A DNA stretch of 64,000 nucleotides from Pseudomonadota bacterium (GTDB lineage: Bacteria > Pseudomonadota > Alphaproteobacteria > Caulobacterales > Caulobacteraceae), in the NCBI GenBank assembly GCA_018241995.1, contig JAFECT010000006.1, forward strand, positions 310,001-374,000. Direction: 5' to 3'. The notes below the pieces were generated by a model. That model saw only the letters and a list, made by a program, of their open reading frames with translations. It made no database searches and was not told where the DNA came from. A program made the position numbers and the translations under genes. Of the stretch, positions 46,318-60,975 are shown one piece after another; the stretch's first letter is position 1; the number at the start of each line of letters is the position of its first letter.

Positions 46318-49300
46318 ATGAGATTTGACCGGAAGACTCTTCTCGCGACCACGATCATCGCGGGATTCACCGTCCTGGCTCCGTCGATCGCGGCGGCGCA
46401 GGACCAGCAGCCCGCGCCTGCCCCGGCCGCTTCGTCGAACGAAGTGACGGAAGTCGTCGTCACCGGCTCGCGCATCCACCGCAACGAATTCAATTCGGCG
46501 GCCCCGATCCAGGTGATCACCTCGGATACGGCGACGCTTGAAGGCCTCGCCACCACCTCGGAAATCCTGCAGAGCTCCTCGCTCGTCGCCGGCGCCTTCC
46601 AGGTCAACAACCAGCTGACCGGCTTCGTCGTCACCGGCGGCCCGGGCTCGAGCACGATCTCGCTGCGCGGCCTCGGCGCCAACCGCACCCTGATCCTGGT
46701 CGACGGCCACCGCATGGGCCCCGCCGGCGTCGGCGGCACCGTCGGTCCGTTCGACCTGAACGTCGTGCCCTCTTCGATCGTCGACCGCATCGAGATCCTG
46801 AAGGACGGCGCGTCCTCGATCTACGGCTCGGACGCCGTGGCCGGCGTTATCAACCTGATCACCAAGAAGAACATCGACGGCGGGATCATCAACGCCTCGG
46901 GTCGCGTGACCCAGCATGGCGGGGGCGACGAGTACGACGTCAACGCGGCCTGGGGTAAGGTCTTCGACCGCGGCTTCTTCAACGTGTCGGCCGACTACAA
47001 TGACCAGATGGTGCTGCATCGCGGCGACCGTCCGGACACGTCCTGCGCCGCCGACTATGTGTTCGATCCGACCACCTTCAAGCGCCTCGACCTGCCGGGC
47101 CTGAACGGCGGCTTCAAGTGCTTCAACGGCGCCGGCTTCGCCAACGTGCTGCGCACCTCGATCGGCGACCTGATCTATCCGGACGCCGGCATCACCTATC
47201 CGACGCCGTCGCAGGGCAACTCGACCGGTTCGGGCGCGCCGATCCCGTTCGGCCTCGAGCGTCAGGCCCGGGCCGGCTTCCCGCTGACCTACCCCTACGC
47301 CCACGAAGACAACGCGCTCTATCAGCGCCAGTCGATCATCAGCCCGAACAAGCTCTACACCCTGAACTTCCGGGCCGGTTACGACCTCACGCCGGATACC
47401 GAACTGACCTTCGGCCTGCTGCTCAACCGCCGCGACTCGCAGCAGCTCGGCAGCCGCCAGTTCTTCCCGGTGGTCAACGGCGCCAACCCGAACGTGCCGG
47501 CGGGCTTCGCCGCCAACTTCGGCCTGCTGGAGCCCATCATCCCGGCGAAGTTCGACTTCGACCAGACGGTCAACTACGCCAACGCCTACGTCGGCCTGAA
47601 GGGCAAGTTCTCGGAATTCCCGGTGTTCGGCGGTTGGGACTGGGAACTGTACGGCCGCGCCAGCCGGTCGGACGCGACCTACGGCTACGACTTCATCTAC
47701 AACGACCGCGTCAACGCGGTCATCGGCTCGCAGGCCTGTAACCAGTCGGCGATCACCATCTCGGGCGGCCAGTGCTCCTCGATCCCGGGCGGCATCCCGC
47801 TCCTCAACAAGGCCGAGCTGTCGGGCCAGTTCACCCCGGCGGAGCAGGCCTTCCTGTTCGGCCATGAGCAGGGCAAGACCACCTACGACGAGCAGGAGTT
47901 CGAGGCGTCGATGACCGGCGACCTGTTCAGCCTGCCCGCCGGCAAGGTCGGCGCCGCCCTCGGCTTCGACTACCGTCACAATTCGATCGACGACACGCCC
48001 GGCTTCAACAACCGCAACGGCAACCTGTGGGGCTCGACTTCGGCCGGGATCACCAAGGGTTCGGACGCGGTGAAGGAAGTCTTCGCCGAAGTCGACGTGC
48101 CGCTGCTGAAGGGCATGCCGATCGTCAAGTCGCTGAACCTGCAGGCTTCGGGTCGCTACACCGACTACGATTCCTACGGCTCGAACACGACCTACAAGGT
48201 CGGCCTCGACTGGCAGATCAACTCCTGGCTTCGCCTGCGCGGCACCAAGGGCACCTCGTTCCGCGCTCCGGCGCTGTACGAACTGTTCCTGGCCAACCAG
48301 ACCGGCTTCCAGGGTCAGACCGCCGTCGACCCCTGCATCCAGTGGGATCAGAGCTCCAACGCCAACCTGAAGGCCAACTGCCAGGCCGCGGGCGTGCCCG
48401 CCGGCTATGTGGCCGCCAACAGCTCGTCGGCCCTGATCATCACCGGCGGCGGCGCGGGCCACCTGAAGGCGGAAACCTCCAAGGCCGACACCCTGGGCCT
48501 GGTGTTCACGCCGAGCTTCGTCGATCTGTCGGTGGCCGTCGACTACACCGACCTGCAGGTATCGAACGAGGTCACCACCTTCGGCGCCGGCAACATCGTC
48601 AACTCCTGCTACACGGCGGCCAACTTCCCGGCCAACCCGTTCTGCCAACTCGTGACCCGCGCCGGCTTCAACGGTCCGGGCAACACCAATGGCCCGGGCG
48701 GGACCAACGTTCCGGAGATCCTGACGGTCAACAACAGCTACGTGAACGTCGCCAGCCAGGTCGAACGCGCTATCGACCTGACCGTGCGCTACCGCCACGA
48801 CTTCGACATCGGCCGCTTCCAGCTGGACAGCCAGCTGACCTGGGACCTGCACAACACGACCCAGCTGTTCGCCGGCGTGCCGCAGCCGTCCTACAGCGGC
48901 ACGACCTTCGGCTTCAAAGGCCCGGCCTTCGCCGGCGTGACCACCCTGCGCTTCGAGCATGGTCCCTGGACCGGTCTGTGGACCGTCCAGATGATCGGCC
49001 CGGGCTCCGACGTGGACCTGATCGGCGAAACCGGCTCCAGCACCCGCTACTCCTCGACCTGCCGCGTCGGGGCGGTGACGGGGCCCTGCTCCAGCCTGAT
49101 CGGCACGGGCACGCTGACGGTGATCCCGGTGCCGGTGGCGCTGAAGAACCGCGTGGAAATGACCACCTACCACACGATCTCCCTGCGCCGGACCTTCGAC
49201 ACCTGGGTTGTGCAGGGCGGTATCCAGAACCTGTTCGACGAGCGTCCGCCATCGGTGTCCAACACCGAGTTCCGCGCCGGCACCGCCGCGCTGAACGGCT

Positions 49301-49350
49301 ACGACGTCCTGGGCCGCCGCTTCTTCCTGAACATCTCGAAGAAGTTCTAA
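46318..49350 (+). CDS. TonB-dependent outer-membrane receptor
   Basis: The 1010-residue protein has a signal peptide (about 1-27), a Pro/Ala-rich linker with the TonB-box region E-V-V-V-T-G-S-R-I, a plug domain (about 45-180, with S-L-R-G-L-G-A-N-R-T-L-I-L-V-D-G) and a large beta-barrel. The final residues S-K-K-F end in Phe, the outer-membrane insertion signal. The ligand is unknown; this oligomeric-carbohydrate/TBDR type is greatly expanded in Caulobacterales. GGGGGA precedes the ATG. A strong terminator follows. Confidence 0.95.
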   Translation: MRFDRKTLLATTIIAGFTVLAPSIAAAQDQQPAPAPAASSNEVTEVVVTGSRIHRNEFNSAAPIQVITSDTATLEGLATTSEILQSSSLVAGAFQVNNQLTGFVVTGGPGSSTISLRGLGANRTLILVDGHRMGPAGVGGTVGPFDLNVVPSSIVDRIEILKDGASSIYGSDAVAGVINLITKKNIDGGIINASGRVTQHGGGDEYDVNAAWGKVFDRGFFNVSADYNDQMVLHRGDRPDTSCAADYVFDPTTFKRLDLPGLNGGFKCFNGAGFANVLRTSIGDLIYPDAGITYPTPSQGNSTGSGAPIPFGLERQARAGFPLTYPYAHEDNALYQRQSIISPNKLYTLNFRAGYDLTPDTELTFGLLLNRRDSQQLGSRQFFPVVNGANPNVPAGFAANFGLLEPIIPAKFDFDQTVNYANAYVGLKGKFSEFPVFGGWDWELYGRASRSDATYGYDFIYNDRVNAVIGSQACNQSAITISGGQCSSIPGGIPLLNKAELSGQFTPAEQAFLFGHEQGKTTYDEQEFEASMTGDLFSLPAGKVGAALGFDYRHNSIDDTPGFNNRNGNLWGSTSAGITKGSDAVKEVFAEVDVPLLKGMPIVKSLNLQASGRYTDYDSYGSNTTYKVGLDWQINSWLRLRGTKGTSFRAPALYELFLANQTGFQGQTAVDPCIQWDQSSNANLKANCQAAGVPAGYVAANSSSALIITGGGAGHLKAETSKADTLGLVFTPSFVDLSVAVDYTDLQVSNEVTTFGAGNIVNSCYTAANFPANPFCQLVTRAGFNGPGNTNGPGGTNVPEILTVNNSYVNVASQVERAIDLTVRYRHDFDIGRFQLDSQLTWDLHNTTQLFAGVPQPSYSGTTFGFKGPAFAGVTTLRFEHGPWTGLWTVQMIGPGSDVDLIGETGSSTRYSSTCRVGAVTGPCSSLIGTGTLTVIPVPVALKNRVEMTTYHTISLRRTFDTWVVQGGIQNLFDERPPSVSNTEFRAGTAALNGYDVLGRRFFLNISKKF

Positions 49351-49386
49351 GCCTGACGATCTTCTCGAGGTCCCCCTCGAGACCTG

Positions 49387-49419
49387 GGGCGGCGGGGAAA
49401 CCCGCCGCCCTTTTTCTTT
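49387..49419 (+). terminator. Strong terminator after the TonB-dependent receptor
   Basis: A perfect 10-bp stem (GGGCGGCGGG at 49387-49396 with CCCGCCGCCC at 49401-49410) with a GAAA loop, followed by TTTTTCTTT. Confidence 0.95.
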
Positions 49420-49486
49420 GCGCGCGACACTTCTGGAAGGGCCGCGCCGCTTGCGCCCGCCGCGATTCCGTGGCGAAGCAGGCGCC

Positions 49487-50659
49487 ATGGTCGAGCTGCA
49501 GAAACCCTTCCGCCGGCCCGAGCGGCCGTGGTTCTCCTCCGGCCCCACGGTCAAGCGCCCCGGCTGGACGCCCGAGGCGGCCCTCGGGGCAGCCCTGGTG
49601 GGGCGCGGCATCCGCGCGCCTGCGGTCCTGGCTCGACTGAAGCAGGCCATCGAACTGACCCGTGAGGTCCTGCAGGTCCCGGCCGACTATGCCATGACCT
49701 TCCTGCCGGGCTCAGACACGGGCGCGATGGAATCGGCCATGTGGACGCTGCTGGGCCCCAGGCGGGTACAGGCCCTGGCCTATGAGAACTTCGGCCAGGT
49801 CTGGGCCGCGGACCTGCTGGAGCACCTGGACGTCGAGGCCGAAGCGATCAAGGCGCCCTATGGCGAGATGGCGGACCTGTCCAAGGTCGATCCGGAGGCG
49901 GACCTGGTGTTCGTCTGGAACGGCACCACCTCAGGCGTGCGCGTGCCCGACGCTGACTTCATCGCGGCCGACCGCAAGGGCCTGACCATCTGCGACGCCA
50001 CCTCGGCCGCCTTCGCCATGCCGCTGGACTGGTCAAAGCTCGATGTGACTACCTTCTCGTTCCAGAAGGCGCTGGGCGGCGAGGCCGGGATCGGCGCCAT
50101 GGTCCTTTCGCCGCGGGCGTTGCAGCGGCTGAACAGCTTCACGCCGACCCATCCGGTTCCCAAGATCATCCGCATCCAGAAGGGCGGGGTCGGCGACGCG
50201 GAGCTGATCGGCGGTTATCCGGTCAACACCTATTCCATGCTCACCATCGAGGACTGGATGGACGGCTTGCGCTGGGCCGCCCGCGTGGGCGGCCTGGAGC
50301 AGTTGATCCGGCGCACCAACGAGAACTTCGCCATCCTCTCCGCCTGGGTCGAGCGCACGCCCTGGATCGACTTCCTGGCCAAGGATCCCGCGATCCGTTC
50401 GCAAACCTCGGTGGTGCTGGAGTTCGTCGATCCTGCCGTACGCGGCCTGGCGCCGGAGGGGCGCGCTGCTTTCGGCGCCAAGCTGTGCGCCCTGCTGGAG
50501 CGCGAAGGGGTCGGCTTCGACCTGAATTCGCACCGCTCCGCCCCGCCGGGCCTGCGCATCTGGTGCGGCTGCACGGTCGAGCGCGACGATGTCGAAGCTC
50601 TGCTGCCCTGGATCGAGTGGGCCTACCACACGACCTTCCAGGAACTGGCGACCGCCTGA
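49487..50659 (+). CDS. serC: Phosphoserine aminotransferase (alphaproteobacterial type)
   Basis: The 390-residue PLP enzyme matches the SerC form found in alphaproteobacteria (TIGR01365). It begins R-P-E-R-P-W-F-S-S-G-P-T-V-K-R-P-G-W, and the cofactor Lys is in T-F-S-F-Q-K-A-L-G-G-E. It makes phosphoserine from 3-phosphohydroxypyruvate. The ATG at 49487 was chosen because homology begins there. In many relatives serA lies just after serC; here purA follows instead. Confidence 0.93.
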   Translation: MVELQKPFRRPERPWFSSGPTVKRPGWTPEAALGAALVGRGIRAPAVLARLKQAIELTREVLQVPADYAMTFLPGSDTGAMESAMWTLLGPRRVQALAYENFGQVWAADLLEHLDVEAEAIKAPYGEMADLSKVDPEADLVFVWNGTTSGVRVPDADFIAADRKGLTICDATSAAFAMPLDWSKLDVTTFSFQKALGGEAGIGAMVLSPRALQRLNSFTPTHPVPKIIRIQKGGVGDAELIGGYPVNTYSMLTIEDWMDGLRWAARVGGLEQLIRRTNENFAILSAWVERTPWIDFLAKDPAIRSQTSVVLEFVDPAVRGLAPEGRAAFGAKLCALLEREGVGFDLNSHRSAPPGLRIWCGCTVERDDVEALLPWIEWAYHTTFQELATA

Positions 50660-50778
50660 ACGCGACAAGGCGCGGTGACTCGTCTATAGGCGTGCCGGTT
50701 CCCCTTTGAGCCTGCTCTGAAGACGTGGCCTGCACGTCCGCGCGCAGCATGCTCGCAACGCATCTGGGAGTTTCGGTC

Positions 50779-52068
50779 TTGGCGAACGTCGCGGTGGTCG
50801 GCGCCCAATGGGGCGACGAGGGCAAGGGTAAGATCGTCGACTGGCTGTCGAACCGGGCCGATGTGGTGGTGCGCTTCCAGGGCGGCCACAACGCGGGCCA
50901 CACCCTGGTGGTCGGCGACCAGGTCTACAAGCTCTCGCTGCTGCCCTCGGGCGTGGTGCAGGGCAAGCCGTCCTTCATCGGCAACGGCGTGGTCGTGGAC
51001 CCCTGGGCCCTGTTGGCCGAGATCGGCCGTATCGAGGCGCAGGGCGTGAAGATCACCCCGGACCTGCTGGCCCTGGCCGACAACGCTTGCCTGATCCTGC
51101 CGATCCATCGCGAGCTCGACAGCGCGCGCGAGGCGGCCGCCGGCTCCAGCCGCATCGGCACCACCGGTCGCGGCATCGGGCCGGCCTACGAGGACAAGGT
51201 GGGGCGCCGCGCCATCCGCGTCGCCGATCTGGCCGATCCTGCGGCGCTGGACGCCAAGATCGATCGGCTCCTGACCCACCACGACGCCTTGCGCCGGGGC
51301 CTCGACCTTCCGCCGGTGGATTCCAAGGCCCTGATCGCCGAGCTGATCGAGGTCGCAGTCAAGGTCTTGCCCTTCGCAAGGCCAGTTTGGCGCGAACTCG
51401 ACGAGTGTGTTCGGCGAGGTGACAAGATTCTGTTCGAGGGAGCGCAAGGCGCGCTTCTGGACATCGACCACGGCACCTATCCGTTCGTGACGTCCTCCAA
51501 CACCGTGGCCGGCCAGGCGGCGGCGGGCTCAGGTCTGGGGCCGAGCCGGGTGGGCTACGTGCTGGGCATCGTGAAGGCCTACACCACCCGCGTCGGCGAG
51601 GGCCCGTTCCCCACCGAACTCAAGGACGCCACCGGCCAGAGGCTGGGGGAGCGAGGCCATGAATTCGGCACCGTCACCGGGCGCCCGCGTCGTTGCGGCT
51701 GGTTCGACGCGGTGCTGGTGCGCCAGTCGATCGCGGTCAACGGCATCGACGGTATCGCCTTGACAAAGCTCGATGTTTTGGACGGTTTCGAGACGCTGAA
51801 GATCTGCGTCGGCTACCGCATCGGCGACCGCACCTTCGACTATCTCCCGTCCGGCCTGAAGGACCAGTCGGCGGTCGAGCCGATCTACGAGGACATCGAG
51901 GGTTGGAGCGAAAGCACGCGCGGCGCCCGCTCCTGGCGCGAGATGCCGGCCAATGCGATCAAGTACGTCCGCCGCATCGAGGAACTGACCGGCGCCCCGG
52001 TCGCCCTGCTCGGCACCTCGCCAGAGCGCGAGGACACCATCCTGATGCGCGACCCTTTCCAAGGTTAA
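50779..52068 (+). CDS. purA: Adenylosuccinate synthetase
   Basis: The 429-residue enzyme converts IMP to adenylosuccinate with GTP. It has the GTP-site motif W-G-D-E-G-K-G-K near residues 10-17, [22 protein letters not shown] and [12 protein letters not shown]. Start choice: TTG at 50779 follows GGGAG at 8-base spacing and gives the conserved A-N-V-A-V-V-G start and the normal length. Upstream ATGs would add 18 unrelated residues. Confidence 0.96.
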
Positions 52069-52278
52069 ACTGCGGCGTGCTGTCGCAGCTTGTACAATTG
52101 CCTCAAGTGCAGGGCGTGCAAAAAAAGTAGTAAATACAGAGCGGTATACTTTTGCGCCAACTGACGCTTTCGCCGCTGCAGCCATAGTTGGCTGAGCCTG
52201 TTCGCCCGATAAGGGAAGCTTCACCAATCGCGTTCACCATCGCAATTCAGAAGCTGCTGAATTGCAACCGGATCGCGA

Positions 52279-52851
52279 ATGGCAGGGCTTGACCTGAACG
52301 GTCGCATAAACATGGAGAAGGCCAGCGTGCTTCTGCTGGACCCCAATCCGTGGAGCCAGCAGATCACCAAGCAGATCCTGTTCGGCTTTGGCGTGCGCAC
52401 GCCCTTTGTTTGCGAGAATCCAGCCGACGCGCGCGAAATCCTTGAGGGGCAGGACGTCAATCTGCTGGTGATCAGCGACGTGCTGGGCGAGACCACCGGG
52501 TACGAATTCGTCAGCTGGATGCGCCGCGCCGGCATCGGGCCCAACAGCTTCATCCCGATCATCATCGTCAGCGGCCACACCAAGCGCTCAAATATCCATG
52601 CCGCGCGCGACTGCGGCGCCAATTTCATCCTGGCCAAGCCGGTCAGTGTGCAGGTGATGCTGGAAAGGGTGCTGTGGGTGGCGCGCGACGGCCGCACCTT
52701 CATCGACACAGGCAAATACCTTGGCCCGGACCGTCGGTTCCGCAGCATCGATCCGCCTGACGGCGTGATGCGGCGCCGGGACGATCTGAGGCCGGGAACG
52801 GCGTTCGCCCCCGGGGCGGAATCCTTGGCGGCTGCGGGAGGCGATCAGTGA
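52279..52851 (+). CDS. Single-domain response regulator with GPDRR tail (receiver A)
   Basis: The 190-residue protein has a receiver domain (about 15-135) with Asp21 of the acidic pocket, phospho-acceptor Asp67 in V-I-S-D-V-L-G-E-T-T-G-Y-E-F, a Ser at the switch position (I-I-I-V-S-G-H-T) and the Lys of L-A-K-P. The second acidic-pocket residue is Pro22. The tail has L-G-P-D-R-R-F and then a charged, disordered end. No output domain is present. It is followed with a 4-base overlap by the Hpt-like gene. An alternative start is ATG 52312. Confidence 0.8.
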   Translation: MAGLDLNGRINMEKASVLLLDPNPWSQQITKQILFGFGVRTPFVCENPADAREILEGQDVNLLVISDVLGETTGYEFVSWMRRAGIGPNSFIPIIIVSGHTKRSNIHAARDCGANFILAKPVSVQVMLERVLWVARDGRTFIDTGKYLGPDRRFRSIDPPDGVMRRRDDLRPGTAFAPGAESLAAAGGDQ

Positions 52852-53324
52852 GCGAGGGCGTCGTCAGGCATATTCCGGTGGTCAACCGGCTGGCCAAGCT
52901 GATCCACATCCCGGGCGGCAAGCGTCTGAGCGAAGCGATCGCCGACGCCCAGGCCAACCTCGGCGCGATCAAGCCCGACTGCATCGAGGCCATCGACGAA
53001 GCCCTGGCCGAGGTGGTCCTGCTGACGAAGCAGCCCGGCGGTCCGGACGCGTCGACGCTTGCGCGGCTCTATGACCTGGCCAACCACATCAACGGCACGG
53101 CCGGCCATTTCGGGCTCGAGGACATGGGCAAGGCCGCCTACAGCCTGTGCGACCTGATCGACGCGGCGCAGGACAGCGGCGGGGCCGAGCGCACCGCGGT
53201 GATGGTGCACGTCGAAAGCCTCGCGCTGTTGCGACACCCCGAGGGCCTGGGCGAAGTCGGTCGCAAGGCGGTGCTGGACGGGTTGGCCAAGGTTGTGAGC
53301 CACGCCCGGGGCAAGCGGGCCTGA
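52848..53324 (+). CDS. Hpt-like protein with altered phospho-acceptor site
   Basis: The 158-residue helical protein aligns with histidine phosphotransfer domains over the motif A-H-x-x-K-G-x-A-G-x-x-G-L. Here it reads A-N-H-I-N-G-T-A-G-H-F-G-L at residues 78-90. The His position is Asn79 and the Lys is Asn82; His80 and His87 lie nearby. The rest (L-E-D-M-G-K-A-A-Y-S-L-C-D-L-I-D) fits the Hpt helical bundle. It starts at GTG 52848, overlapping the receiver A gene by four bases, and should be co-translated with it. Confidence 0.65.
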   Translation: MSEGVVRHIPVVNRLAKLIHIPGGKRLSEAIADAQANLGAIKPDCIEAIDEALAEVVLLTKQPGGPDASTLARLYDLANHINGTAGHFGLEDMGKAAYSLCDLIDAAQDSGGAERTAVMVHVESLALLRHPEGLGEVGRKAVLDGLAKVVSHARGKRA

Positions 53325-53327
53325 CGC

Positions 53328-53510
53328 TCAGGCGTCGCCGTCGTCGGGCGGCGCGCTTTCCAGGTCGCGCGGCTTGACCATCGAGGGCGGATCGCTGGCC
53401 GGAAAGCTCTCGTCCAGCGCCTCGTCGAGCAAGGCTTCACGGTGTCGCCGTTCGGCAGCCTTGGTCGCCTCGGGATCGGCGTCCCTGTCATGGTCATGGT
53501 CGGAAGCCAT
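53328..53510 (-). CDS. Small conserved protein with D-E-A-L-D-E-S-F-P-A-S-D-P-P-S motif
   Basis: A 60-residue acidic protein starting H-D-H-D-R-D-A-D-P-E-A. The motif E-A-L-D-E-S-F-P-A-S-D-P-P-S is shared by many small uncharacterised bacterial proteins. It lies on the opposite strand inside the signalling cassette, four bases from the end of the Hpt-like gene. The function is unknown. Confidence 0.65.
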   Translation of the reverse strand: MASDHDHDRDADPEATKAAERRHREALLDEALDESFPASDPPSMVKPRDLESAPPDDGDA

Positions 53511-53614
53511 TGCGAAGCTCCTTCGCGATGCGCCCTGGCGGTCCTCGTTGCGTCAAGGCGATCTTTACCCTGCGCAGCTAGGATCGTGCCGCATCCAGTG
53601 AGAGGCCCGAGCCC

Positions 53615-54424
53615 TTGTTCGCCGATCCCAAGATCATCCACAAGCTGGAACCGCATATCCGGCGGGTGCTGATTGTCGACCCGAACCCCTCGTCGGCGCG
53701 CCTGATGGGCGAACTGATGAAGGGCCTGGGCGCGCGCGATCTCTATTTTGAGCCGGACGAGCGCCGGGCGCTGGACCTGTGCCGCGAAGCCGATCCGCAT
53801 CTGATCTTCATCGAGCGCGCCGGCGCGCGGCTGGATGGGGAAAGCTTCACCAGGAAGCTGCGCCGCAGCCAGCTGGTCTGCCGCAAGGCGCCGGTGATCA
53901 TGGTCACCGCCGACGCGACGGCCTCGACCATCAAGGGCGCGCGCGACGCGGGCGTCCACGAATTCATGCGCAAACCCTTCACCGGCGGCGATCTGGTCAA
54001 GCGCGTCGCCGTGGTGTGCCTGAAGTCGCGCTCCTGGGTGGAAGCGGTCGGCTATGTCGGTCCCGACCGCCGTCGCTTCAACTCGGGGGAATATGCCGGC
54101 CCGCGCAAGCGCAAGGCCGATACCGCGCTCAGCAAGGCCGACCAGCAGGCCGAGGCGATGGACCAGTCGGTGCGCATCCTGCGCTCGGCCATAGCGCAAT
54201 TCGACAACGACCCCACGCAGGCCGTGCGCGCCATCCGGGAGCAGGCCGAGCAACTGAAGCGCCTGGCCGTCACCCGCGGCGAAGCCAAGCTGGCCGTCGC
54301 CGTCGCCGGTCTCGAAATCGCCCTGACCGCGAGCAGCTGCACCCGCACGGCCCTGACCGGTCCCGTCAAGGCCGTGACCGACCTGTTCGAGCCCAACAGC
54401 CCGCTGGCGGTCAGCGCCGCCTGA
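53615..54424 (+). CDS. Receiver-domain protein with Glu at the phospho-acceptor site (receiver B)
   Basis: The 269-residue protein starts at TTG 53615. Its receiver domain (about 15-135) has Asp22 and Pro23 in the acidic pocket, as in receiver A, but Glu67 where the phospho-acceptor Asp should be (L-I-F-I-E-R-A-G). The Thr (I-M-V-T-A-D) and Lys (M-R-K-P-F) switch residues are present. The G-P-D-R-R-R-F motif follows near residue 150, then a helical C-terminal region that may pair with a partner. Glu may mimic constitutive phosphorylation. Confidence 0.78.
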   Translation: MFADPKIIHKLEPHIRRVLIVDPNPSSARLMGELMKGLGARDLYFEPDERRALDLCREADPHLIFIERAGARLDGESFTRKLRRSQLVCRKAPVIMVTADATASTIKGARDAGVHEFMRKPFTGGDLVKRVAVVCLKSRSWVEAVGYVGPDRRRFNSGEYAGPRKRKADTALSKADQQAEAMDQSVRILRSAIAQFDNDPTQAVRAIREQAEQLKRLAVTRGEAKLAVAVAGLEIALTASSCTRTALTGPVKAVTDLFEPNSPLAVSAA

Positions 54425-54437
54425 GGCGCGGCGTCCT

Positions 54438-55346
54438 TTAGCCTCGCCAGCGGCTGACGATGCGCGCGGCCTCCGCGATCACCGCGTCGCGGCCGTCGTC
54501 GCTCTGCGCCGGCGCCACATAGTAGGCCGTCACGATCAACGGCGCGCCGCGAGACGGGCGGATCACCGAGATATCGTTGGCTTGGCCTTGGCCGCTGGTG
54601 CCGGTCTTGTGGGCGATGCGCCAATCGGCGGGCAGGCCGGCGCGCAGGCGATGCTTGCCCGGCGTGCTGGTCTCCATCCAGGTCCAGAGTCTGGTCCGCG
54701 ACGCCGGCGACAAGGCCGCGCCCAAGAGCAGGGTCTTCAATCCCGCCGCCGTCCCGCGCGGGGTGGTGGTGTCGAGCACGCCCTTTTCTCGGTTGAGGAA
54801 GGGCTCGGGCCGGTCGAAGCGCGAGGTGGTGTCGCCCAGGCTGCGGACGAAGCGCGTGAGCGGCGCAGTCCCGCCGAGCTGGCGCAGCAGCAGGACGGCT
54901 GCGGTGTTGTCGCTTTCCTGCACGGCGGCGGCGCACAGGGCCTCCACGCTCATGCCGCCTTCATGGAGGTGGGCCTTGGTCACCGGCGCATTGGCCAGCA
55001 TGTCGGCCTTGCGATAGGGCACGCGCCGGTCGAGACGCTCGACGCCCTTGTCGATCCGCGCCAGGGTCGCACCGGCCAGGGCGGCCTTCATGGTGCTGCA
55101 CATCAAGAAACGGTCGTCCGCGCGATGTTCCAGGGCGCGTCCGGAGCCGGTGTCCAGCGCGAACAGCCCGAGCCTGCCGCCGTGCGCATGCTCCAGCGCC
55201 GTCAGCTGGGCCGCAGCGTCGTTTGCGGTGGGCGCCGCGCGCGCCGGCGCACGGACGGCGGCCGCGCCGGCGAAGGCCAGGCTGGTCAGCACCACGCCGC
55301 GGCGAGACAGGGTCAGACCGGTAGAACGGCTAGGGTCACGGTTCAT
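54438..55346 (-). CDS. bla: Class A beta-lactamase
   Basis: The 302-residue enzyme has all class A motifs: S-T-M-K (Ser70-x-x-Lys73), S-D-N (130 loop), E-P-F-L-N (Glu166 region) and K-T-G (234). The N-terminus carries a Tat-like signal (L-S-R-R-G-V-V-L-T-S-L-A). It should be exported to the periplasm and hydrolyse beta-lactams; the spectrum cannot be told. It is divergent from ampR, the classical inducible arrangement. The ATG at 55346 was chosen because it precedes the signal; a longer frame upstream lacks support. Confidence 0.93.
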   Translation of the reverse strand: MNRDPSRSTGLTLSRRGVVLTSLAFAGAAAVRAPARAAPTANDAAAQLTALEHAHGGRLGLFALDTGSGRALEHRADDRFLMCSTMKAALAGATLARIDKGVERLDRRVPYRKADMLANAPVTKAHLHEGGMSVEALCAAAVQESDNTAAVLLLRQLGGTAPLTRFVRSLGDTTSRFDRPEPFLNREKGVLDTTTPRGTAAGLKTLLLGAALSPASRTRLWTWMETSTPGKHRLRAGLPADWRIAHKTGTSGQGQANDISVIRPSRGAPLIVTAYYVAPAQSDDGRDAVIAEAARIVSRWRG

Positions 55347-55462
55347 GGCAGGGCGCTCCGAGGGGGTTCGGGGGTTTTGGCTGACAGCGATATTTCCCCT
55401 GTGGAGCGACGCCGACAAAGGATGATAGGTCTGGCGAGCCATTAGATATTTTAGGGGCAGCC

Positions 55463-56329
55463 GTGGCCCATCCGCCGATCCCGCTGAACGCGCTGAGGGC
55501 CTTCGAGGCGGCCGCCAGGCATCTGTCTTTCACCCGCGCGGCCCAGGAGCTGTGCGTCACGCAGGCGGCGGTCAGCCACCAGGTCAAGGCGCTGGAGGCC
55601 AGGCTTGGCCTGACCCTGTTCCGGCGTCTGCCACGGGGCCTCGCCCTGACCGACGAGGGCGTGGCGCTGCTGGCCCCGGTCTCGGACGGCTTCCAGCGGA
55701 TCGGCCGCATGCTCGAGCGCTTCGAGGGCGGGCGGTTGAAGGAGGTGCTGACCGTATCGGTGGTGGGCACCTTCGCCGCGGGCTGGCTGTTGCCGCGCCT
55801 GCAGGCTTTCGGGGAAGAGCATCCCTTCATCGACCTGCGCATGCTGACCAACAACAACCGGGTGGACCTGGCCGCAGAGGGCCTGGATCTGGCCATCCGC
55901 TATGGCGATGGCGCCTGGCATGGGGTGGAAGCCGAGCCGCTGATGGACGCGCCCCTGACACCGTTGTGCTCGCCGGAGCTGGCGGCGCGCCTGGGCGAGC
56001 CGCGCGACCTGCTGGGTCAGACCTTGCTCAGGCCCTATCGCGGCCAGGACTGGCTGGCGTGGTTCGAGGCGGCTGGACTGGGGGCGGTGGCGGTGCGCGG
56101 CCCGTTGTTCGATTCGTCTTGGATCATGGTCGAGGCCGCCATCCAGGGCCTTGGCGTGGCCCTCGCCCCGGCGGCCATGTTCCGGCCGGCGCTGGAGGCA
56201 GGGCGGCTGGTGCAGCCGTTTGCGATTACAACGCCAGGTGGGCGCTATTGGCTGACGCGCCTGAAGTCACGCACGCCCAGCCCGGCGATGCAGGCCTTCC
56301 GGGACTGGGCTTTGCGCGAAACAGTCTGA
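55463..56329 (+). CDS. ampR: AmpR-type LysR family regulator of beta-lactamase
   Basis: The 288-residue protein has a LysR helix-turn-helix (about 5-65: I-P-L-N-A-L-R-A-F-E-A-A-A-R-H-L-S-F-T-R-A-A, then V-S-H-Q-V-K-A-L-E) and an effector domain with the AmpR-typical V-V-G-T-F-A-A-G-W-L-L-P-R-L and T-N-N-N-R-V-D-L-A. AmpR senses muropeptides released from peptidoglycan. It starts at GTG 55463, 116 bases from bla. A small palindrome, TGGCGAGCCA at 55432-55441, is a possible binding site in the shared region. Confidence 0.92.
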   Translation: MAHPPIPLNALRAFEAAARHLSFTRAAQELCVTQAAVSHQVKALEARLGLTLFRRLPRGLALTDEGVALLAPVSDGFQRIGRMLERFEGGRLKEVLTVSVVGTFAAGWLLPRLQAFGEEHPFIDLRMLTNNNRVDLAAEGLDLAIRYGDGAWHGVEAEPLMDAPLTPLCSPELAARLGEPRDLLGQTLLRPYRGQDWLAWFEAAGLGAVAVRGPLFDSSWIMVEAAIQGLGVALAPAAMFRPALEAGRLVQPFAITTPGGRYWLTRLKSRTPSPAMQAFRDWALRETV

Positions 56330-56339
56330 GGTCTGAGCC

Positions 56340-57227
56340 TCAGGCGTCGACGAGATTGCGCTCGACGGCGGCGGCCTTCATCGCCTTCTGCAGCTTCTCG
56401 AACGCGCGCACCTCGATCTGGCGCACCCGCTCGCGGCTGACGCCGTACTGCGAGGCCAGTTCTTCCAGCGTGGTCGGCTCATCCTTGAGCCGGCGTTCGG
56501 TCAGGATGTGGCGCTCGCGGTCCGAAAGCTCGTGCATGGCTTCCTGCAGCAGGCCCATGCGCAGGCTCTTCTCTTCGCTCTCGGCGACCTCGGTCTCCTG
56601 GCTGACCTGATTGTCGTCCGCCAGCCAGTCCTGCCACTCGCTCTCGGAGTCCGAGCGCAGCGGCGCGTTCAGCGAGGCGTCGGGGCCGGACAGGCGCCGG
56701 TTCATCGAGATCACGTCGTCGTTGGTGACGCCCAGCCGCGTGGCGATGTGGCTGACCTGTTCGGGGCGCAGGTCGCCTTCCTGCAGGGCCGCGATCTCGC
56801 TCTTGGCCTTGCGCAGGTTGAAGAACAGCTTCTTCTGGGCTGCGGTGGTGCCCATCTTCACCAGCGACCAGGAGCGCAGGATGTATTCCTGGATCGAGGC
56901 GCGGATCCACCACATGGCGTAGGTGGCCAGGCGGAAGCCCTTGTCGGGATCGAATTTCTTGACGGCCTGCATCAGGCCGACGTTGCCTTCGGAGATCACC
57001 TCGCCGATCGGCAGGCCGTAGCCGCGATAGCCCATGGCGATCTTGGCCACCAGGCGCAAGTGCGAGGTGACGAGCTTGTGCGCCGCGTTCGGGTCTTCAT
57101 GCTCCTGCCAGCGCTTGGCGAGCATGAACTCCTCGTCCTTGGTCAGCATCGGGAACTTGCGGATCTCGGTCAGGTACCGGGACAGGCCGCCTTCCGGCGT
57201 CATGACAGCAAGCGAAGTGGTAGCCAT
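56340..57227 (-). CDS. rpoH: Heat-shock sigma factor RpoH (sigma-32)
   Basis: The 295-residue protein has sigma-70-family regions 2-4 and the RpoH box Q-K-K-L-F-F-N-L-R near residue 130. Region 2 has Y-A-M-W-W-I-R-A-S-I-Q-E-Y-I-L-R-S-W, and region 4 has the helix-turn-helix E-E-L-A-S-Q-Y-G-V-S-R-E-R-V-R-Q-I-E. It directs transcription of chaperone and protease genes. The ATG at 57227 gives normal length; the frame is open 126 bases further upstream without homology. FtsH at 38-40 kb is its expected protease. Confidence 0.97.
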   Translation of the reverse strand: MATTSLAVMTPEGGLSRYLTEIRKFPMLTKDEEFMLAKRWQEHEDPNAAHKLVTSHLRLVAKIAMGYRGYGLPIGEVISEGNVGLMQAVKKFDPDKGFRLATYAMWWIRASIQEYILRSWSLVKMGTTAAQKKLFFNLRKAKSEIAALQEGDLRPEQVSHIATRLGVTNDDVISMNRRLSGPDASLNAPLRSDSESEWQDWLADDNQVSQETEVAESEEKSLRMGLLQEAMHELSDRERHILTERRLKDEPTTLEELASQYGVSRERVRQIEVRAFEKLQKAMKAAAVERNLVDA

Positions 57228-57429
57228 TCGGACAGTCTCCCCGGGGCGGAACGAAGGTTCCCGGGCCAGGGTCCGCGTCGCCGCGGACGAGGTCCGTGCC
57301 CCCCAACCAACCCCAGATATGGATTGTTGCACTCGAAAAAAGATGGCCCGCAATCGGCGCCTGAACAGCGTGGCCTTTCGGCGTCACTTGCGGACCGTTG
57401 GAGCCTTTCCTATCAGCTAGTCAGTCCTT

Positions 57430-57436
57430 TTTCAAG
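57430..57436 (-). promoter_or_regulatory. Possible sigma-32 -35 element upstream of rpoH
   Basis: On the minus strand CTTGAAA lies just after the guaD stop codon and about 200 bases before rpoH. It matches the sigma-32 -35 consensus, and Caulobacter rpoH has a sigma-32-dependent promoter. No good CCCCAT -10 partner was found, so this is only a candidate. Confidence 0.3.
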
Positions 57437-57443
57437 ACTTATA

Positions 57444-58736
57444 TTAAACGCTGGTTTTACAAAGCCTTCCCGCTACCCAAGTCCCCTTGACCGCGCGATC
57501 GTCGCCGAGCGTCATCAGCACGAACAGGGTCTCCGCCGGGGAGCCTGAGCGCGCGTTGCGGGCCTTCAGGATTGGGGTCGCTTCCGGGTCCAGCACGACG
57601 AAATCCGCCTCCATACCCGGCGCAAAGCTGCCGATCCGGTCGGCAAGGCCCATCGCCCTGGCCCCGCCCAGGGTCGCCAGATAGAGCCCGCGCACCGCGT
57701 CCAGCGGCCGCCCGGCGATCTGGCTGACCTTGTAGGCGTCGCCGAGCGTGCGCAGCATCGACAGGCTGGTGCCCGCGCCCACGTCGGTGCCCAGCCCGAC
57801 TTCGACCGGACGCTCCGCGTCCTTGACGTCGAATACATGCATGGCGCCCGAGCCCAGGAACAGGTTCGAGGAGGGGCAGTGCGACAGGCCCGAGCCGGCG
57901 GAGTGGCAGGCGTGCAGCTCCGGCTCCGACAGGTGGACGCCGTGGGCGAAGACGGCGCCGGGGCCGGCCAGGCCGTGGTGGGCGTAGACATCGAAATAAT
58001 CGCGCCGGTCGGGAAACAGCTCCGCCGTCCAGGCGATCTCGGCCTTGTTCTCGGCGATGTGGGTCTGCACCAGGACGCCCGGGCGCTCGGCCCACAATGC
58101 GCCGGCCGCCTGGAGTTGCTCCGGCGTGCTGGTGGCGGCGAAGCGCGGGGTGATGGCGTAAAGGTTGCGGCCCTTGCCATGCCAGCGGTCGATCAGGGCC
58201 TTGGACTGGTCATAGCCGGTCTGGGCCGTGTCGGTCAGACCCTCCGGCGCGTGGCGATCCATCAGCACCTTGCCGGCGGCGATGCGCATGTTGCGCCGGC
58301 TCGCGGCCTCGAACAGGGCGTCGACGGAGTGCTCATGCACCGAGCAGAACACCAGGGCGGTGGTCGTGCCGTTCCTCAGAAGCTCGTCACAGAACAGCTC
58401 CGCCTGCGCGCGGGCGTAGGCCGGGTCGGCGAAGGCCAGCTCGGCCGGGAAGGCGTAGTCGAGCAGCCAGTCCAGGAGCTGGTCGCCATAGGCGCCGATG
58501 ATGCCGGTCTGGACGTAGTGGACGTGGGTGTCGATGAAACCGGGGCAGATCAGGCAGCCGGGATAGTGCTCGACCTGGACGGGTTCGTTCAGCGCGCCCA
58601 GCACTTCCGCGGCCTCGCCCACCGCCTCGATCAGGCCGTCGCGGCAGACGATCGCCCCGTCGGAGATATGGCGCAGCGCCTCGGCCGGATCCGAGAAGAA
58701 GGGATCGTCCTGGAGCCAGACCAGGGCGCCGCGCAC
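57444..58736 (-). CDS. guaD: Guanine deaminase
   Basis: The 430-residue amidohydrolase starts at GTG 58736. It has the metal motif P-G-F-I-D-T-H-V-H-Y-V-Q near residues 63-74, then F-C-S-V-H-E-H-S-V-D, V-Q-T-H-I-A-E-N, A-H-G-V-H-L and G-L-G-T-D-V-G-A-G near 320. It converts guanine to xanthine and ammonia in purine salvage. It is located between rluD and rpoH, which are usually adjacent in alphaproteobacteria. Confidence 0.93.
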   Translation of the reverse strand: MRGALVWLQDDPFFSDPAEALRHISDGAIVCRDGLIEAVGEAAEVLGALNEPVQVEHYPGCLICPGFIDTHVHYVQTGIIGAYGDQLLDWLLDYAFPAELAFADPAYARAQAELFCDELLRNGTTTALVFCSVHEHSVDALFEAASRRNMRIAAGKVLMDRHAPEGLTDTAQTGYDQSKALIDRWHGKGRNLYAITPRFAATSTPEQLQAAGALWAERPGVLVQTHIAENKAEIAWTAELFPDRRDYFDVYAHHGLAGPGAVFAHGVHLSEPELHACHSAGSGLSHCPSSNLFLGSGAMHVFDVKDAERPVEVGLGTDVGAGTSLSMLRTLGDAYKVSQIAGRPLDAVRGLYLATLGGARAMGLADRIGSFAPGMEADFVVLDPEATPILKARNARSGSPAETLFVLMTLGDDRAVKGTWVAGRLCKTSV

Positions 58737-59870: not shown

Positions 59871-60329
59871 TCACGATTGCTCCTCCGAGATCAGGCCGAT
59901 GTTCAGGTAGCCCGCGCTTTCCAGCTGGTTCAGCACCGCGGTGAAACGGCCGTACTCCAGGTCGGCGTCGGCGCGGATCATCACCTGGTTGCGGTGCGGA
60001 TCGGCGGCGTTTTCGGGGTAACGGGTGTTCAGCGCAGCGGTCAAATCCGCGACCAGGGCCTCGCGGCTGGTGGGCTTGGAGACTGCTCCAGCCAGGAAGA
60101 TTGAGCCGTCCGCCGCCACCGAGACATAAACCGGCGGCTGGGTGGGGCTGGTCGGTGGCGTCCCGACCGGCAGGTCAAGCTTCAGCGCGGCAGTGGCCGG
60201 CGGAATCGAGACCATGAAGATGATCAGCAGCACCAGCATCACATCGACGAAGGGTGTGACGTTGATGTCGGCGTTCTGCAGGATCACATAGCGATCCCCG
60301 CCGTTGGAGCGCGACAGCGCCTTTCCCAT
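59871..60329 (-). CDS. ExbD/TolR family transporter subunit, copy 2
   Basis: The 152-residue protein has a short cytoplasmic start, one transmembrane helix with the channel Asp (V-T-P-F-V-D-V-M-L-V-L-L-I-I-F) and a periplasmic domain (D-L-E-Y-G-R-F-T-A-V-L-N-Q). It is a close paralogue of the next gene. No exbB gene is adjacent, so it must work with an ExbB/TolQ elsewhere. The 180 bases before it include the previous gene's terminator, so it has its own promoter. Confidence 0.9.
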   Translation of the reverse strand: MGKALSRSNGGDRYVILQNADINVTPFVDVMLVLLIIFMVSIPPATAALKLDLPVGTPPTSPTQPPVYVSVAADGSIFLAGAVSKPTSREALVADLTAALNTRYPENAADPHRNQVMIRADADLEYGRFTAVLNQLESAGYLNIGLISEEQS

Positions 60330-60510: not shown

Positions 60511-60975
60511 CTACTGCAGCGACTCGGAGATCAGGCCGATCTTCAGGAAGCCGTTCTGCTCAAGGATGTTCAGGGTATCCATGAACTTTTCGTACTCGAC
60601 ATCGGCGTCGGCGCGGATCAGCACCTGGTTCTTGCGCGGGTCGGCGCTGTTCTCCGGGAAGCGCGCGTTCAGGGCCGCAGTCAGGTCGGCCGGCAGGTTT
60701 TCGCGAGTGGTGGCCTTGTCGACGAAGCCGCCGATGTTCAGCGAGCCGTCGGCGCCCACCGAAATATAGACCGGCTTCTTCGGCGGGATCGCGTCGTGCG
60801 GATCCTGCGGCGGCGGCAGGTCGAGCTTCAGCGAAGCCGTGGGCGGCGGAATGGACACCATGAAGATGATCAGCAGCACGAGCATGATGTCGACGAACGG
60901 CGTGACGTTGATGTCCGCGTTCTGCTCGATCACATACTTGTCGCCGCCACCGGCGCCGGACAGCTTTGCAGCCAT
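60511..60975 (-). CDS. ExbD/TolR family transporter subunit, copy 1
   Basis: The 154-residue protein shares the V-T-P-F-V-D-I-M-L-V-L-L-I-I-F membrane segment and a periplasmic half (N-Q-V-L-I-R-A-D-A-D-V-E-Y-E-K-F) with its neighbour. The two differ mostly in the segment after the membrane helix (D-L-P-P-P-Q-D-P-H-D-A against D-L-P-V-G-T-P-P-T). Tandem ExbD copies are known in some proteobacterial TonB systems; here both are away from tolR and without exbB. Confidence 0.92.
   Translation of the reverse strand: MAAKLSGAGGGDKYVIEQNADINVTPFVDIMLVLLIIFMVSIPPPTASLKLDLPPPQDPHDAIPPKKPVYISVGADGSLNIGGFVDKATTRENLPADLTAALNARFPENSADPRKNQVLIRADADVEYEKFMDTLNILEQNGFLKIGLISESLQ

Follow-up and report, generated by a model that had tools for sequence, protein, structure and literature searches.

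Genes and genomic context

In the window, i.e. the whole stretch of 64,000 nucleotides that was analysed, purA is followed by three genes of the plus strand (Table 1). A previous sequence-only reading of this DNA had delimited the same three open reading frames, and it had noted the overlap of four bases (GTGA) between genes 1 and 2. Both observations were confirmed. That reading knew of no described system with this layout, but all three parts can be assigned to named families (CleA, CheE and CleD). The identities, conservation, gene coupling and folds given below were computed in this work, and the functions of CleD and CleA come from the papers cited.

Table 1. Position of the features discussed in the text (coordinates of the window)
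Feature	Coordinates	Strand	Evidence
purA (adenylosuccinate synthetase)	50725..52068	+	syntenic anchor
Gene 1, CleA/CheYIII-type receiver with Arg-rich tail	52279..52851	+	Pfam Response_reg, family alignments
Ser66 (acceptor column) and Asp67 (shifted) codons	52474..52479	+	CheY alignment, column counts in 137 sequences
ARR-like putative c-di-GMP motif of gene 1 (R139, YLGPDRRF, R166)	52693..52788	+	column counts in 137 receivers
Gene 2, CheE, predicted Hpt/CheA-P1-like four-helix protein without phospho-histidine	52848..53324	+	AF2, Foldseek, P. zucineum annotation
N79-H-I-N82-G, degenerate H-x-x-K-G site	53082..53096	+	column counts in 133 sequences
60-codon ORF between cheE and cleD	53328..53510	-	translation
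Gene 3, orthologue of CleD with Glu67 in the acceptor column	53615..54424	+	PDB 6sft match, purA synteny
ARR of CleD, predicted c-di-GMP-binding peptide (R153 and R166, i.e. R156 and R169 of C. crescentus)	54023..54124	+	6sft match

PurA was found in all 29 genomes searched, and cleD lies at most 5.2 kb from purA in 24 of the 28 other genomes (at most 200 bases in 12 of those). The search detected no CheE between purA and cleD in any of these 28 genomes; in the genus with the largest genomes of the family, the gap holds other genes and not the pair made of genes 1 and 2. Among the 29 genomes, including a single one for the genus of the window, this is the only one that has the pair at this place. 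Therefore, the three genes were probably brought together in this lineage only. They do not form a single simple operon, as the minus-strand ORF of 60 codons separates cheE from cleD. Moreover, they are adjacent in no other genome examined, and a conserved cassette was therefore rejected.

The 60-codon ORF contains a DESFPASDPPS stretch and, among the loci compared, matches only the copies of the region in its own genome. Neither a scan of positions 49000-58000 with Rfam nor a plasmid search with gene 2 gave any match. Downstream of cleD, inspection of the translations by eye points to a probable class A beta-lactamase-like gene (54438-55442, minus strand) divergent from a gene encoding a LysR-type regulator (55463-56329, plus strand), an arrangement that resembles ampR-type pairs. 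Two adjacent and very similar ExbD/TolR-like genes (59874-60329 and 60514-60975, both on the minus strand) were also recognized by eye.

Gene 3, a CleD orthologue

Gene 3 encodes a Response_reg domain (Pfam) followed by an Arg-rich region, and its residues 137-170 match the c-di-GMP peptide of CleD (6sft, E 7e-13), its best solved relative. The tandem ARR (YVGPDRRR...YAGPRKR) agrees with the one that defines Cle proteins, i.e. a receiver then tandem [Y/F]xGPx[R/K]R motifs (PMC5677366). In all 30 CleD orthologues compared (window included), R110 in alpha4 and R152, R153 and R166 are invariant, and the acceptor column holds Glu (26 proteins) or Asp (4 proteins). Given the 6sft match, the conserved linkage to purA and these invariant arginines, gene 3 is identified by sequence as an orthologue of CleD and is thus a predicted CheY-like c-di-GMP effector. 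For C. crescentus CleD (CC3100), the Kd for c-di-GMP is 86 nM (Nesper et al.), and the protein localises to FliM (PMC5677366, PMC7534056). Upon its overproduction, additional density is seen by cryo-tomography at the outer C ring (PMC5677366/PMC7534056). Furthermore, the cleD E70A mutant is fully functional, while the ARR and the alpha4 Arg are required (PMC5677366).

The sequence-only reading rightly placed Glu67 at the acceptor position of this protein and an Asp-Pro acidic pocket in both receivers, but it overlooked c-di-GMP as input and the Arg-rich c-di-GMP peptide of gene 3. It described the three proteins as having no output domain, whereas both receivers carry an Arg-rich c-di-GMP extension. 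Its proposal that Glu67 would be a permanent phospho-mimic is contradicted by the E70A experiment on the C. crescentus orthologue.

In another genome (G282), two tandem CleD-like genes lie downstream of purA, the second one without ARR (L189:3059-4869). The genome of the window also encodes a further Cle-like receiver that harbors both ARR repeats (GPCRRR and GPMRR; L186:2191-2754, minus strand).

Genes 1 and 2 as a CleA-CheE pair

The profile of gene 2 and its relatives matched three regions of one genome (3819657-3820121, 93753-94217 and 3661059-3661514), which coincide with PHZ_c3371, c0101 and c3230 of P. zucineum. Since all three coordinate pairs agree, we took this genome (G398) as P. 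zucineum. These three genes are annotated CheE, c3371 being given as the orthologue of CC0441, and the adjoining genes (c3372, c0102 and c3231) are annotated CheYIII. CC0440, listed as a CheYIII orthologue, is CleA (Nesper et al.). Hence, through the P. zucineum coordinates, genes 1 and 2 are assigned by sequence to a CleA-type receiver and CheE, respectively. An early guess, CC3101-CC3102, was abandoned as the C. crescentus pair is CC0441-CC0440.

The two genes are tightly coupled: by a distance rule, CheE is directly downstream of 133 of the 137 distinct receivers, and 127 of these 133 pairs overlap by four bases, (A/G/T)TGA. Among Caulobacteraceae loci whose flanks are long, a STAS-cheY-cheA-cheW-cheR-cheB-cheY-cheD-x operon is often closed by the pair. 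The genome of the window has a second pair, in the vicinity of the sole CheA detected there. According to a paper of 2023 (PMC10579534), CheE had hardly been described.

A CleA-type receiver without acceptor aspartate

Gene 1 also encodes a Response_reg domain (Pfam), and Foldseek matched its AF2 model to CheY. Asp67 had been taken as its intact phospho-acceptor. However, in an ungapped alignment Ser66 falls on Asp57 of CheY, Asp67 being one residue off. The CleA landmarks D67, R111, RR153 and R167 (positions published in PMC5677366) give the same result, as they correspond to S66, R110, RR152-153 and R166 of gene 1 with a constant offset of 1. The phospho-acceptor Asp is therefore missing from gene 1. 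Among 137 homologues, the acceptor column holds 116 D, 13 E, 4 N, 2 A, 1 G and 1 S, this sole Ser being that of the window. None of the 24 receivers encoded near che genes has lost this Asp. Gene 1 belongs to a supported clade with three receivers (L002, L054 and L007) that all have Asn in this column, and it shares the shifted Asp with L002 and L054.

C. crescentus CleA keeps the acceptor Asp, but its D67A variant is functional, so that phosphorylation is dispensable for the phenotypes tested, while the c-di-GMP residues are required (PMC5677366). A loss of the acceptor without loss of function is therefore plausible. As the acceptor Asp, present in CleA but outside the published definition of Cle proteins, is both absent from gene 1 and dispensable in CleA, we filed gene 1 as a CleA-type paralogue rather than as CleA itself.

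Besides the alpha4 Arg (R110), gene 1 has the first ARR repeat (YLGPDRRF). Among the 137 receivers, R110, G149, P150, R152, R153 and R166 are invariant, and Y147 (134/137) and D151 (136/137) nearly so. The second half of the ARR reads PPDGVMRRRDD instead of Y-x-G-P-x-R-R, only R166 being kept, and it is divergent across the whole CleA-type set. Because of this degenerate half, binding of c-di-GMP by gene 1 is rated as likely only.

CheE, a putative pseudo-Hpt

Gene 2 scores 21.1 bits against the Hpt family of Pfam (PF01627), under the cut-off of 24.6. Its AF2 model is a helical bundle (pLDDT 89.6) whose best PDB matches in Foldseek are CheA P1 domains (2lp4, 1i5n and 3kyi; probability 1.00, E about 0.01, TM about 0.58 on the query to 0.70 on the target), 3kyi being a P1-CheY6 complex. 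According to this model, the protein is predicted to have the four-helix Hpt fold. At the site of the phospho-histidine it reads L-A-N79-H-I-N82-G, as had been seen previously. In 133 CheE homologues, column 79 is occupied by S, N, A, T, D, L, G, M or K but never by His, column 82 never by Lys, and HxxKG is found nowhere in the protein. Hence, among the residues whose conservation was in question, the absence of His79 and Lys82 is general and Glu67 of CleD is frequent, but Asn79 itself varies. These data support the view that the Hpt-like protein is a pseudo-Hpt, none of the 133 homologues having a His at the site, and docking rather than transfer of phosphate is the reasonable reading for CheE. 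The suggestion that His80 could be a shifted acceptor was discarded, as His occurs at this column in only 4 of the 133 homologues.

Cys101, Asp105 and His121 are conserved in the CheE family, His121 being its only strongly conserved His (125/133). Two homologues with a canonical AHDLKG site, one from this genome (L184, beside a probable NAD kinase gene) and one from another family of the order (L016), also have SLC..D and the equivalent His. These three residues are therefore more readily explained by a role in the fold. Most simply, CheE would descend from an Hpt-type protein whose catalysis was lost early in the family, and it would have been kept as the partner of CleA-type receivers. A pseudo-Hpt of this kind, without the His throughout its family and linked to CleA, seems not to have been described before.

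The canonical homologue of this genome (L184:1689-2240, minus strand, contig C6) is probably related to the catalytic protein from which CheE arose. HmrB (108 aa, HmrABCX), another putative HPT devoid of HxxKG, was set aside since it belongs to a different locus.

FliM-like tails of CleA-type receivers

The C-termini of CleA-type receivers include NMSQDAIDSLLQP and NLSQDQIDGLLKP, the second copy of this genome ends in ALSQTEVDSLFG and the FliM of this genome carries ILNQDEIDSLLGFD. The motif, LSQxxIDxLL-like, is found in receivers L021, L023-L027, L053, L185 and others, and also in 24 of the 26 FliM proteins scanned, including that of this genome. In FliM, it is the CheY-binding peptide (PMC5677366). 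With a FliM profile, 38 of the 137 receiver tails score at least 10 and 73 at least 5, versus 0 and 3 of 4280 other C-termini, respectively, the 137 tails being related rows and not independent events. A loose form of the motif is present in 23 of the 24 che-linked receivers versus 2 of the 43 orphan receivers (mostly from Brevundimonas). Gene 1 of the window does not carry it.

Nesper et al. designate the C-terminal region of the receivers as CTR and as variable, and no mention of its resemblance to FliM was found in the sections of their paper that were consulted. The FliM-like motif with which many CleA-type receivers end thus seems undescribed. The tail might act as a pseudo-ligand in cis or as a decoy in trans for CheY or Cle proteins.

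Proposed role of the locus and alternative explanations

We favor, as fairly probable, that these genes encode c-di-GMP-dependent machinery of the flagellar motor, with CleD acting on FliM, a CleA paralogue working without phosphorylation and CheE docking as a pseudo-Hpt. As was demonstrated for the C. crescentus orthologue, CleD would bind c-di-GMP through its Arg-rich peptide and dock on FliM, and motility would be restrained. Gene 1, a divergent CleA paralogue, is most likely switched by c-di-GMP in the same way, through the alpha4 Arg and the ARR, and would have given up phosphorylation. A response to c-di-GMP and not to phosphate is suggested by the near-invariance of the c-di-GMP determinants in the 137 receivers, whereas the acceptor varies. 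CheE would derive from a canonical Hpt/P1-type domain. Most likely, it passes on no phosphate but docks on its CleA-type partner, at the receiver face. This docking may either set the availability of the partner to FliM or shield the partner from the chemotaxis kinase. Both the tight gene coupling and the fold point to docking; operon coupling alone is no proof that CheE binds the receiver.

The FliM-like tails lead to another possibility, which we put forward tentatively: CleA-type receivers might gate themselves. The tail, as a copy of the CheY-binding peptide of FliM, would cover the FliM-binding face of the receiver in cis or in trans, and c-di-GMP bound to the adjoining ARR would move it away. 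CheE would be a dedicated pseudo-P1 on the same receiver, replacing the kinase input. In the clade of the window, which has lost both the acceptor Asp and the tail, c-di-GMP and CheE would be the sole controls.

The same losses, together with a long branch (0.85) and the existence of a second pair beside the only CheA found, could mean that the pair of the window is a decaying duplicate devoid of function. This is unlikely: the frames are open, the four-base overlap is kept, the Arg motif is invariant and three other genomes of the supported clade share these losses.

The sequence-only reading, whose observations are partly confirmed and whose interpretation is partly supported, proposed a degenerate phosphorelay whose proteins may signal by exchanging partners; the Glu receiver would permanently mimic the phosphorylated state and the Hpt-like protein would compete. 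In favor of this proposal, the acceptor residues are missing, and plant pseudo-Hpts such as AHP6 interfere with phosphorelays. Nevertheless, Glu is the norm of the CleD family alongside strictly conserved c-di-GMP residues, the E70A protein is functional and the real input is c-di-GMP, which makes this explanation quite improbable. Finally, transfer of phosphate by a relocated acceptor, His121, would account for its conservation but is very improbable, since the canonical Hpts share this seemingly ancestral structural residue along with SLC..D and the receiver of the window lacks the acceptor Asp that would take the phosphate.

Comparison with known systems

The locus is ordinary in identity but interesting in detail, with a divergent CleA-CheE copy beside cleD and CheE as a family-wide pseudo-Hpt. 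CheE belongs to the main chemotaxis operon of Caulobacter. Seen as a His-less Hpt/P1 tied to the c-di-GMP receiver CleA, it would have a testable role, i.e. to link or to insulate kinase control and second-messenger control of the motor. Moreover, the FliM-like tails hint at a way in which the FliM-binding face could be opened by c-di-GMP with no need for phosphorylation, a point that was left open by Nesper et al.

Gene 3 resembles CleD (CC3100) by its receiver and ARR peptide, its acceptor Glu, its alpha4 Arg and its long C-terminal region, and also by the purA linkage seen in relatives. The window differs by the CleA-CheE pair and the small opposite-strand ORF between purA and cleD. Gene 1 shares with CleA/CheYIII (CC0440, che1 operon) the GPDRR of the ARR, the alpha4 Arg, the adjacent cheE and the spacing of the landmarks at offset 1, but it lies outside a che operon, has a Ser in the acceptor column and carries no FliM-like motif in its tail. 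Gene 2 corresponds to CheE (CC0441) by its place next to the receiver gene, by the overlap of the two genes and by family, as the three P. zucineum CheE genes were matched. The literature found describes no function for CheE, whereas a His-less Hpt/P1-like fold is assigned to it here on the basis of the model. Pseudo-Hpts are also known in plants, for instance AHP6 of Arabidopsis, which have the Hpt fold but have lost the phospho-His, Asn being among the replacements. CheE likewise combines a predicted Hpt fold with the absence of the phospho-His, but it belongs to another lineage and fold subclass, it has also lost the Lys and its partner would be a c-di-GMP-type receiver.
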